A stretch of DNA of 7,183 nt from a bacterium (lineage in GTDB: Bacteria > JALSQH01): NCBI GenBank assembly GCA_026985515.1, contig JALSQH010000160.1:1-7183 (forward strand), read 5' to 3'. The notes under the pieces are model-generated. The model made no database searches. It was not told the origin of the DNA and was given only the letters and a program-made list of their open reading frames with translations. Every line of letters starts with the position of its first letter. The first letter of the stretch is position 1. This document shows positions 1,345-7,084 of the stretch, piece after piece. Made by a program: the position numbers and the translations under genes.

Positions 1345-2190
1345 TCAATTAAGCCTCTCAATAATAGTCGTGACTCCCTGGCCACCTCCACAGCACATGG
1401 TGGCAAGTCCAAGGGTTAGATCCTTATCTTCCATTATATGCAGAAGAGTGGTGATGATCCTCGTTCCACTCTCACCAAGAGGATGACCCAGAGCTATCGC
1501 TCCGCCCCGCATATTCACCTTTTCCATATCCATTCCAAGCTCCCTGATAACTGCCAGTGACTGAGAAGCAAAAGCCTCATTCAGTTCTATTGCATCAATA
1601 TCATCAAGGGTCATTCCAGCTCTCTTCAGAGCCTTTCTGGTGGCAGGGATTGGTCCTATACCCATTATCTCAGGTGGCACACCGGCAGCCGCAATTGAAA
1701 CAATTCTTGCTCTTGGTTTCAACCCAAGTGAAATTGCCTTTTCCTTCTCCATCAGGAGAATAACTGAAGCTCCATCATTGAGAGGGGAAGAATTTCCCGC
1801 AGTAACAGTACCGTTGGGGTCAAATACAGGTGGAAGAGATGCAAGTTTCTCAAGGGATGTATCGGGACGTGGCCCATCATCCTTTTCGGCTATTCTGTGA
1901 AAATTCCCTTCAGCATCAATAACTTCAATGGGAACAACTTCCCTTTTGAACTCACCATTGTCCCATGCTCTGACCGCCTTTCTGTGACTTTCCAGAGCAA
2001 ATTTATCCTGATCTTCACGGCTTATGTTGTACATCTTTGCCACATTTATGGCTGTTTCAATCATAGTGACAAATGCCTGGGGATATTCACTCCAGAACCT
2101 TGTATTTGGCCGCGGAGACAATCCACCCATTGGAATAAATGTCATACTTTCAACACCACCTACAATGTACGCATCCCCATTCCATTCCAT
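1345..2190 (-). CDS. Thiolase C-terminal fragment (as encoded, 281 residues)
   Basis: This is the downstream frame, carrying the NEAFA, GHPLG and CCGGGQG catalytic motifs. The first ATG in this frame (2190) is created within the duplicated repeat and overlaps the upstream fragment by 31 bases. I see no ribosome-binding site before it, so independent translation is doubtful. It lacks the acyl-accepting Cys91 and is best read as the rest of the broken thiolase. Confidence 0.55.
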   Translation of the reverse strand: MEWNGDAYIVGGVESMTFIPMGGLSPRPNTRFWSEYPQAFVTMIETAINVAKMYNISREDQDKFALESHRKAVRAWDNGEFKREVVPIEVIDAEGNFHRIAEKDDGPRPDTSLEKLASLPPVFDPNGTVTAGNSSPLNDGASVILLMEKEKAISLGLKPRARIVSIAAAGVPPEIMGIGPIPATRKALKRAGMTLDDIDAIELNEAFASQSLAVIRELGMDMEKVNMRGGAIALGHPLGESGTRIITTLLHIMEDKDLTLGLATMCCGGGQGVTTIIERLN

Positions 2191-2504
2191 ATGGCAAGAG
2201 TGGCAAAATGAAGAGCAGTCATGGCTGAGCCACAGAATCTGTTAACCGTTACTCCTCCAACCTCAATGGGTAATCCAGCCATAAAAACAAGCATCCTTGC
2301 AATATTCATTCCCTGCTCCCCTTCGGGAAAGGCAGTTCCCCAGTACAGATCTTCAATCTCATTCCACGGGAACCCATCATATCTCTGCATCATCTTTTTG
2401 ATTAATTGAGCGGAAAGATCATCAGGTCTGATTTCCTTCAGACCACCCTTTCGGGCTTTTCCTATAGGAGTTCTCAAAGCCTCAACGATAACTGCTTCTC
2501 TCAT
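2160..2504 (-). CDS. Thiolase N-terminal fragment (as encoded, 114 residues)
   Basis: This is the part translated from the normal start in the sequence as given. It covers the N-terminal thiolase fold up to and just past the nucleophile (VNRFCGS, Cys91). It ends with about six residues in the wrong frame (MGMRTL) before TAG at 2162-2160. It lacks the His and second Cys of the active site, so it cannot be an active thiolase alone. Confidence 0.6.
   Translation of the reverse strand: MREAVIVEALRTPIGKARKGGLKEIRPDDLSAQLIKKMMQRYDGFPWNEIEDLYWGTAFPEGEQGMNIARMLVFMAGLPIEVGGVTVNRFCGSAMTALHFATLAIWNGMGMRTL
2181..2190 (-). repeat. 5-bp tandem duplication causing the thiolase frameshift
   Basis: The plus strand shows TCCAT twice (2181-2185, 2186-2190), preceded by the near-copy CCCAT (2176-2180). 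On the coding strand this reads ATGGA ATGGA ATGGG. Removing one unit gives the codons for A-I-W-N-G-D-A in one frame, exactly the expected thiolase sequence. Confidence 0.85.
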
Positions 2505-2545: not shown

Positions 2546-4213
2546 TCACAGATCATCAAAATCCAGTTCATCAAGAAGCTTTTTCAACTCTTCATCTTCA
2601 AGTTCCTCATCGCCTTTTTTCTTTTTTCCCTTTTTCTCCTTCTTCTCCTCTTTTTCCTCTACCTTCTCCTCTCCCTCCTCAACAGTGATTTCTTTAAATA
2701 AAGCATCAACCTCTTCATCCTCATATTCTTTCAACCTATCCTCTCCTCCAGCTCCACTCTCCTCTTCAAACTCGCTGAGTATTGCATCAAGGTCCTCCTC
2801 ACCCCCAGATTCCTCTGCTTCTACCTCAAGCTCAGCTTCTCCACCCTCTTCTTCACTCTCAACTTCTATTGCCTCTTCGATTTTCTCCCCCTCTTCAACA
2901 CCTAACTCCTCAAGCAACGAATCCACATCCACTTCACCCTCCTCTCCACCCTTTTCTTCTTTTTGCTCACTCATTTCTTCCTCTACCGATTCAACTTCAA
3001 TTTCTCCCGATTCAGTTTCAGTCACTTCAATTTCTTCATCCTCCACCCTCAGCTGATCAAGGAGCTCCTCAATCTCTTCTTCCTCACCACCTTCTTCCAC
3101 TTCAACCTCCTCACCTTTACCTTCATCCTCAGTTGAAACCTCTATTTCCTCCCCTCCCTCTATTTCACCAAATTCTTCAAATGAAACTTCAGTTTCAATT
3201 TCCTCGCCAGTATCTCCGGAGGGGGTCTCTTCCTCTGACTCCTCTTCCACTATTTCCTCAGTAACTTCACCTACTTCCACATTTTCCGATTCCTCCATAA
3301 CCCCTTCCTCCCCTTCAAGTTCTTTCAAAAGTGTTTCAAGCTCCGCACTTGTACCTTCTGCTTCCTCCATTTCCTCCGAAACAGCTTCCACTGAGATACC
3401 CTCTTCCTGGATCCCCTGTTCTGTAATTTCACTCGCTTCCCCACCTGATGTTGTCTCTTCAATCAGTTCTTCTGAGGATAATCCAGCGGCTTCTTCCTCC
3501 TTTACCTTTTCAGCAACACCGGAAAACTCCATATATGCTATCTCCACTTCTTTCTCTGTGACCTTCCTTAAAGAGGAAAGGTAAGCCTGGTAGAGTGAGG
3601 ACCATGCGAGTCTATTAAGGAGATCTATGTCACCATTTGAAAATTCCACTATGGAATCGATGGCTTCTCCAGTAAATATTTCACTGCTCCCACCAGCGTA
3701 ATTCAAATAACCCTGAATATACTTTTTCAATTCAGATGCAGGGGGTGGTTCAAGTTCCACCCCATTCTTTCCCTTTACTCTCTCCCTTGTAATAAGGAGT
3801 ACAGAAGCTGAAGAAGCGGAAAGCTCTTGCTCAATGTCCCCTTTTTCACTGGCACCTTCAAATCCATCAATGATTACAATGTCAAAAAGAGAAGCAAGAT
3901 TGGCCAGTGAACCTTCTGCACCTGCCACCTTATTCAGTCTCCTTACAATCCATTCAACTCCGGCATTGGTCGGGATAGTGATGTAAACAACTTTCCTGGA
4001 ATCAATTGGAATATATTCTATTGCTCTTTTTACCACACTTGTCTTTCCAGTTCCTTTTTTGCCAACCAGAAAAAGCAAACCTTTTTCACCGTTCAGAAAT
4101 GAGAGAATTCTTGCCATTACCCTGCTTTGAGTAGAAAAAACATAGAAAAATCCCCCTGCCTCAACAGGAACAAACGGAGCAGTTTTAAATCCAAAGAAAT
4201 TGAGTATATTCAT
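2546..4213 (-). CDS. Divergent ExeA/GspA-like P-loop protein with long Glu-rich repeat tail
   Basis: Residues 1 to about 230 (555-residue form) resemble the ExeA/GspA/MshM ATPases of type II secretion and pilus-like systems. The N-terminus has NFFGFKTAPF. Walker A is GKKGTGKT (51-58). A Walker B-like strand, DIVIIDGFE, follows at 111-119. The lid segment has YIQGYLNYAGG and the family-like FTGEAIDSI. Departures are clear: Walker B has DG instead of DE, the usual GxPRxIN sensor-2 segment reads GDIDLLN, and the stretches around Walker B are short. There is no transmembrane segment or peptidoglycan-binding domain, so it is probably cytosolic. From about residue 235 the protein is extremely acidic (44 Glu in residues 299-398 by my count), with six LLxEL-type motifs, a Lys-rich block (517-533) and the ending ELDFDDL. 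A TTG at 4219 also opens the frame, but AAAGGGGG (4228-4221) is one base from it and seven from ATG 4213, so ATG is chosen. The gene lies 13 bp after the TPR gene's stop and is probably coupled to it. Its function is unknown. Confidence 0.85.
   Translation of the reverse strand: MNILNFFGFKTAPFVPVEAGGFFYVFSTQSRVMARILSFLNGEKGLLFLVGKKGTGKTSVVKRAIEYIPIDSRKVVYITIPTNAGVEWIVRRLNKVAGAEGSLANLASLFDIVIIDGFEGASEKGDIEQELSASSASVLLITRERVKGKNGVELEPPPASELKKYIQGYLNYAGGSSEIFTGEAIDSIVEFSNGDIDLLNRLAWSSLYQAYLSSLRKVTEKEVEIAYMEFSGVAEKVKEEEAAGLSSEELIEETTSGGEASEITEQGIQEEGISVEAVSEEMEEAEGTSAELETLLKELEGEEGVMEESENVEVGEVTEEIVEEESEEETPSGDTGEEIETEVSFEEFGEIEGGEEIEVSTEDEGKGEEVEVEEGGEEEEIEELLDQLRVEDEEIEVTETESGEIEVESVEEEMSEQKEEKGGEEGEVDVDSLLEELGVEEGEKIEEAIEVESEEEGGEAELEVEAEESGGEEDLDAILSEFEEESGAGGEDRLKEYEDEEVDALFKEITVEEGEEKVEEKEEKKEKKGKKKKGDEELEDEELKKLLDELDFDDL
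2549..3340 (-). repeat. Six spaced LLxEL-type motifs in the acidic tail
   Basis: Within the Glu-rich tail the following short segments recur: LETLLKEL (292-299), IEELLDQL (381-388), VDSLLEEL (430-437), LDAILSEF (475-482), VDALFKEI (502-509) and LKKLLDEL (543-550). The pattern is [LIV]-[DEK]-x-[LI]-[LF]-x-[EQ]-[LFI]. It is often followed by x-[VF]-[ED]-[ED], as in GVEEGE, TVEEGE and DFDDL. Each could form a short amphipathic helix. The DNA copies differ, so selection appears to act on the protein motif rather than on a recent DNA duplication. Confidence 0.7.
2613..2680. other. Long polypyrimidine/polypurine tract
   Basis: The plus strand is pure C/T from 2613 to 2660 (48 bases). A single A at 2661 is followed by 19 more pyrimidines to 2680. 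The tract encodes the Glu/Lys block of the acidic tail on the minus strand, so it follows from GAA/GAG/AAA/AAG codons. Such tracts can favour triplex DNA or polymerase slippage. Confidence 0.75.
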
Positions 4214-4220
4214 TTTCAAG

Positions 4221-6523: not shown

Positions 6524-7084
6524 TTAACCTATCCTCTCCACATATTCTCCTGTTCTTGTATCAATTTTAATAATGTCACCCTCATTGATAAAAAGTGGAA
6601 CATTAACCACCAGCCCTGTCTCAAGTTTCGCTGGCTTGGAACCTCCAGATACAGTGTCACCCCTTACCCCAGGTTCAGTTTCAACAACTTTGAGTTCAAC
6701 AAAATTGGGCAGTTCTATATCAATGGCATTTCCCCTGTAAAATAAGATTTTCACCTGTATGCCCTCCTGGAGATATCCAGCCTTTTCCCCAAGATTTGCA
6801 GCTGGAATGGAAAACTGATCGTATGTCTCAACATCCATGAACCAGTAACCTTCTCCATCAGAGTAGAGATACTGGGCCTCTCTCTCTTCAAGATCAGGTT
6901 TTGGAAACTTATCCCCCGATCTGAAGTTGATGTCAAGAACATTTCCGGTCAGAAGATTTTTCATCCGGGTTTTTACAAAGGCGGCACCTTTACCCGGTTT
7001 TACATGCTGAAAATCAATAATCTCGTACGGCTCACCCTTGTACTCAATTTTCAGTCCTCTTCTGAAATCTGTCGTGCTGTACAT
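6524..7084 (-). CDS. efp: Translation elongation factor P
   Basis: EF-P binds between the P and E sites of the ribosome and relieves stalling at consecutive prolines. The 186-residue product is full length for the family (about 185-190). The N-terminal KOW-like domain carries the loop [11 protein letters not shown], whose Lys32 corresponds to E. coli Lys34, the residue modified by beta-lysylation in that species. Because it is Lys and not Arg, the EarP-rhamnose type is excluded; whether it is modified here cannot be told. The middle and C-terminal OB domains follow, with the signature [12 protein letters not shown], then [17 protein letters not shown] and [11 protein letters not shown], all canonical. 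The start ATG is preceded by GAGGTG (7100-7095), ten bases upstream. It is the first gene of the leftward block and has a strong predicted promoter just upstream. Confidence 0.98.

Follow-up and report, generated by a model that had tools for sequence, protein, structure and literature searches.

What does a protein tail that repeats one short motif six times bind, and what has become of the ATPase domain in front of it? The question is raised by the window, the whole 7,183-nucleotide stretch of DNA analysed here, which encodes an ExeA/GspA-like AAA protein next to a TPR protein. The genes and domains concerned are:

2546-4213, minus strand: ExeA/GspA-like AAA protein with a motif-array tail (mechanical ORF 2546-4219, 557 aa, TTG start at 4219)
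3524-4213, minus strand: degenerate AAA domain (residues 3-232), delimited by alignment to 14 canonical orthologues
2549-3523, minus strand: Glu-rich tail (residues 233-557), with 125 Glu in 325 residues
4227-6509, minus strand: SgmX-like TPR protein, 760 aa, with Pfam TPRs, directly upstream of the ATPase
6524-7084, minus strand: elongation factor P (EF-P) gene, upstream of the TPR gene, a neighbour conserved in G001 and G049

The ATPase likely starts at the ATG at 4211-4213, the equivalent Met being where the homologue in G001, a relative from the same family, begins; 13 bases separate the TPR gene from the ATPase gene. Judged by its composition, the Glu-rich tail is probably disordered. When the contigs of the genome were scanned with the ATPase as query, no relative was found; the TPR protein as query retrieved distant TPRs only.

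The best NCBIfam match of the TPR protein is SgmX (NF052243, E 1.1e-78), at 265.6 bits against a curated cut-off of 1800; the protein is therefore called SgmX-like, not SgmX. MglA-GTP and FrzS recruit SgmX, on which PilB localisation depends (PMC11580455). T4P-type ATPases, MglA and MglB are all present in the three genomes whose ATPases carry motif arrays (the window genome G000, G001 and G049). The sgmX operon consists of an SgmX-type TPR gene and, after it, genes for an ExeA-like ATPase, TamB and TamA. It is complete in G049, which belongs to another phylum: the gene order there, EF-P, TPR, ATPase with array, TamB and Omp85/POTRA, is that of MXAN_5766-5763 in M. xanthus (PMC3983030), where inactivation of mxan_5765 has no effect on S-motility (PMC7668184). 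The window holds the TPR-ATPase pair only, followed on the same strand by a thiolase gene (1345-2504, minus strand). This gene occupies two frames that overlap, 1345-2190 and 2160-2504, and its homologue in G001 is uninterrupted here; the window copy is either a broken gene or marks a sequencing error.

The motif array and its relatives

A sequence-only reading of the window described the tail as six 8-residue motifs of the form [LIV]-[DEK]-x-[LI]-[LF]-x-[EQ]-[LFI]. Run on the 557-aa ATPase, this pattern has exactly six matches, starting at residues 294, 383, 432, 477, 504 and 545:

3317-3340, minus strand: motif 1, LETLLKEL (294-301), aligned with LESLLKEL in G001
3050-3073, minus strand: motif 2, IEELLDQL (383-390)
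2903-2926, minus strand: motif 3, VDSLLEEL (432-439), with the top profile score, 17.3
2768-2791, minus strand: motif 4, LDAILSEF (477-484)
2687-2710, minus strand: motif 5, VDALFKEI (504-511), inside YEDEEVDALFKEITVEE; G001 retains YEDEEVENILKEITVSE
2609-2644, minus strand: Lys-rich stretch immediately preceding motif 6, present in G001 too
2564-2587, minus strand: motif 6, LKKLLDEL (545-552), C-terminal

The distances from one motif start to the next (89, 49, 45, 27 and 41 residues) reproduce the spacing of 27-89 residues that had been described, and the last motif is indeed C-terminal: motif 6 ends 5 residues short of the end of the ATPase, at the site where canonical orthologues place their single motif.

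Could six such matches arise by chance in a Glu/Leu-rich sequence? Two types of shuffle and an independent profile rule this out and confirm the motifs. Composition-preserving shuffles of the tail give a mean of 0.014 matches and a maximum of 2 in 20,000 (P <= 5e-5); shuffles within 20-residue blocks give a mean of 0.017 (P <= 2e-4); and a profile trained solely on the single C-terminal motifs that orthologues in other lineages carry selects the same six sites, a number reached in 0/2000 shuffles. The further claim that almost all hydrophobic clusters of the distal tail fall in the motifs proved overstated: within residues 288-557, the motifs make up 18% of the residues and hold 22 of the 39 L/I/F/M (56%), whereas 19 of the 21 valines lie outside them. 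As for recent DNA repeats as a source of the window motifs, no motif-matching tandem repeat was found in the window, unlike in G049, and this origin was rejected.

How widespread is the motif? The ATPase profile was run against 386 relatives and against 117 genomes from the phylum of G029, a 9-Mb genome whose size and sgmX operon mark it as myxobacterial, and orthologues adjoining the same TPR gene were detected in many families. Of the 82 orthologues whose ATPase domain is canonical, about 65 end in the motif (60 by the strict pattern, about five by a looser one), and the single copy nearly always stands 1 to 9, typically 3, residues before the stop codon, as in LDEIDSILDKLEKG, DDEIDDILGKIGT, KIDLAEIDRYLEGLGKL and TIDLSEIDALLADLNLPKKK. 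Canonical orthologues that have no motif are mostly tail-less. The long-tailed orthologues at L164, L165, L167 and perhaps L180 carry, besides the C-terminal motif, a second one in mid-tail, TT[VL]D[IV][DE]DPLAFL.

Two other proteins carry arrays. The 627-aa version in G001 has nine motifs (EEDIDELLKNLEE and similar): compared with the window protein, the first and the last two motifs keep their position, the number in the middle differs, and the linkers gain or lose stretches. The same gene pair in G049 has a twelve-copy tail (EEEDLDALMADLES). The independent profile recovers all six window motifs, all nine of G001 and all twelve of G049, and 0/2000 shuffles of each tail match these counts. 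In part, the G049 array is a DNA tandem repeat, 4.5 copies of 66 bp (22 aa) with one motif each (L104, 9664-9957), and this repeat is recent array growth. Since a profile of single motifs recovers every array copy, the window array is best read as a multiplication of the widespread single C-terminal motif.

Homologues were also to show whether the motifs are conserved while the linkers vary. In G001, G049 and other lineages, the motifs persist while the linkers change length; copy number is not constant (6, 9 or 12, and usually 1). The refuting condition set for the array, a motif number that is not conserved, therefore holds in a literal sense only, since conservation of the motif as such goes far beyond what chance would give. 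Because motifs persist while linker length and copy number vary, these conserved, short amphipathic segments of a Glu-rich tail look like docking helices in a multivalent array, as had been suggested, and they would be expected to form helices.

The same comparison relates the window protein to MXAN_5765 of M. xanthus (“putative Sec system ATPase”). Both follow an SgmX-type TPR gene, and relatives of MXAN_5765 in the phylum of G029, through which the comparison was made, end in the same motif (KIDLAEIDRYLEGLGKL); these relatives, however, have canonical AAA residues and one motif, whereas the window protein has six motifs and degraded residues.

Decay of the ATPase domain

Is the array attached to a working motor? 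The window AAA domain retains the P-loop GKKGTGKT, its Walker-B Glu is replaced by Gly, and the arginine finger and the sensor arginines are lost, as shown by alignment to the 14 canonical orthologues, in all of which (14/14) the same catalytic positions are invariant. Pfam AAA_22 matches the domain below its cut-off (E 7.8e-5), and a profile of canonical relatives recognises it in two pieces. The other array proteins have followed a similar path: across G000, G001 and G049, the Walker-B Glu position is Gly, Asp or His, and R184 is missing together with the arginine-finger region; the Walker-A Lys is present in G000 and G001 and is Arg in G049. The window protein thus departs from active ExeA/GspA-type AAA ATPases, which are recognised by Walker A, the Walker-B Asp-Glu and the arginine finger. 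Since catalytic residues are lost in all three array proteins, an array tail comes with what is probably a pseudo-ATPase. This association represents two lineages at most and possibly one origin: the MglA+MglB tree gives the two array lineages a single origin in 52% of bootstrap trees.

The decay bears on the idea that the motifs pair with each other or with their own AAA domain, so that the tail would serve for auto-inhibition or oligomerisation. Weak coiled coils can arise from amphipathic LLxEL helices, and the acidic tail offers a Lys-rich block just before its last motif. However, a tail that binds the ATPase domain should not expand where that domain decays, as the arrays have done, and orthologues with a canonical domain exist that have no tail at all; such self-pairing is improbable.

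Candidate partners of the motif

Which other protein would the motif bind? Sequence likeness, a shared pathway and co-occurrence all point to MglA rather than to a TPR groove, and we give this reading a probability of roughly 0.45; a receiver domain would be its main rival, and the TPR protein would come third.

The TPR protein had been named as a natural candidate partner, its grooves receiving the motifs of the adjacent ATPase. Acidic or amphipathic peptides are the usual TPR ligands. Wherever an orthologue occurs, its gene almost always adjoins the TPR gene, so the two proteins probably act together. In dozens of genomes, the SgmX-like TPR protein has a peptide of its own: it ends in a basic sequence, roughly K-[KR]-x-[IV]-[SGD]-[YF]-[ILVM] (for example KKKVSYI, KARKVGYV and KKDRVSYL; L085 9435-12119, L088 9499-12426, L091 6700-9366 and L093 upstream of 9661), which appears to be another conserved docking peptide. 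It is retained even beside tail-less ATPases and is absent in the three array genomes, a difference that would favour the TPR groove there. Yet several lineages keep the TPR gene beside a motif-less ATPase, among them all five TPR-ATPase genomes in which MglA was not found at the threshold used; that these five keep the neighbour and have no motif makes it harder to explain the motif by the TPR groove. The groove is weakened as sole partner, and docking there is unlikely.

The motif tracks MglA instead. MglA is present in all 24 motif-bearing genomes (including G091, counted as such because its ATPase ends in SSIDLADLDALLANLKTRK), and a close, M. xanthus-type MglA is found in 20 of these 24 against 1 of 22 genomes with a motif-less orthologue, a group that includes the five without MglA (Fisher P 3e-8; counted by family, 14/17 against 1/16, P 1e-5), where close means E <= 1e-95, a threshold picked after the data were seen, and where the contrast rests on few independent changes, as the motif-less orthologues cluster: 9 of the 11 motif-less genomes in the MglA+MglB tree fall within one clade. 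Four motif-bearing genomes have a divergent MglA only, and G124 has an M. xanthus-type MglA but no motif. This co-occurrence, with the absence of the motif from the five MglA-less genomes, is why MglA is favoured over the TPR groove.

How might the motif contact MglA? The C-terminal helix (Ct-helix) of M. xanthus MglB, DDDIDNLFS, binds a pocket of MglA in the crystal structure 6IZW: MglB D150-152 touch MglA, while D154 and F157 lie opposite K185 and K181. The exchange activity of MglB also comes from this helix (PMC6785124; PMC11016934). The core of the ATPase motif, D/E-I/L/V-D/E-x-L-L/F, matches this helix. MglB ends in ...EITDEDIENLF or ...EITDDDIDNLF in G000, G001 and G049, and in a variant of SPFxEITDxDI[DE]xLF in every motif-bearing genome where it was found. 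In the window, motifs 2 to 5 fit the MglB pattern (acidic residues, then I/L/V-D/E-x-L-L/F), motif 5 being the copy nearest to DDDIDNLF, and motifs 1 (AELETLL) and 6 (EELKKLL) fit it less well. Conversely, when the motif profile was run on the C-termini of about 500 other ORFs, its best match outside the ATPases was MglB (L272, score 15.5). The pocket residues L64, I67, K181 and K185 are intact in G000, G001, G049 and the other motif-bearing genomes checked; they are mostly intact in motif-less genomes too, so that their conservation is permissive only.

The two segments thus share (i) a C-terminal, acidic, short amphipathic character after a flexible linker, with the core D/E-I-D-x-L-L/F, and (ii) a setting, the same polarity and pilus system, with the MglA pocket residues in the same genomes. 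They differ in that the window protein is an AAA homologue without a Roadblock/LC7 domain, its motif has an extra third hydrophobic position, and the arrays hold 6 to 12 copies. In a chimera, the function of the MglB Ct-helix can be taken over by a Glu-rich helix of RomR (PMC6785124). This C-terminal RomR helix resembles the motif by its description, an acidic helix borne by a polarity protein; it is, however, a single helix and also binds MglC.

MglB is not the only protein with a comparable segment. The motifs could bind a receiver domain, either CheY-like or the pseudo-receiver of FrzS or RomR, in which case the array would gather receivers at the SgmX site. The C-terminus of CheZ binds a CheY-type receiver, and many motif copies (TIDLSEIDALLADL, DEIDSILDKLE and EKIDALFDDLE) are near-identical to the FliM motif. 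The latter, EIDALL, is the CheY-P site of FliM (PMC9126983), and the FrzS pseudo-receiver binds SgmX (PMC11580455). Receiver domains number 10 to 54 in the three array genomes, and in G349 an ExeA ATPase is fused to one in place of the motif tail. Because EIDALL fits the motif equally well by sequence, a receiver is the main rival of MglA. Yet the FliM motif is N-terminal on a flagellar switch protein, and FliM was not found in G000, G001 or G049, for which reason flagellar CheY use of the motifs was rejected; receiver domains are nearly universal, which leaves the absence of the motif from MglA-less genomes unexplained; and the G349 fusion lies outside any sgmX operon. A receiver partner, if the closest competitor, is itself not likely. 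The G349 ATPase (L048/L101, 246-1802) carries its receiver at the N-terminus, has no motif tail and does not adjoin a TPR gene. In G000, the motif profile strongly matches DDLDRLMDDLT in a CheA-like protein (L224, 656-2407) encoded beside a CheY, a match that could bear on a receiver partner.

A possible role beside SgmX

If MglA is the partner, what would the motif do? The six copies repeat one short amphipathic docking sequence, typical of the end of the SgmX-neighbour ATPase, and each would work like the MglB Ct-helix, entering the MglA pocket that helix alpha5 and the beta2-beta3 loop make up. It would thereby tether MglA, a Ras-like GTPase, beside SgmX, the protein that MglA-GTP uses to activate type IV pili, and might favour nucleotide exchange. 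Most lineages have one motif, at the end of the flexible tail of a canonical ATPase; in G049 and the window lineage, the ATPase domain has decayed and the tail has grown into an array. Such a protein would no longer be a motor and would serve instead as a scaffold that holds several MglA molecules. The full version of this idea is more doubtful than MglA binding itself: a decayed ATPase turned scaffold for a Ras-like GTPase, whose 6 to 12 MglB-Ct-like helices, in a copy number that evolves, would concentrate MglA beside SgmX and make pilus activation depend on avidity or clustering.

A conserved MglB-type C-terminal motif on the sgmX-operon ATPase gives a specific, cheap hypothesis. If it is true, this ATPase would be the third part of the SgmX module to contact MglA, the MglB-like motif could be used to search for further MglA clients, and the arrays would illustrate a route by which a small GTPase of prokaryotes could acquire a multivalent effector.
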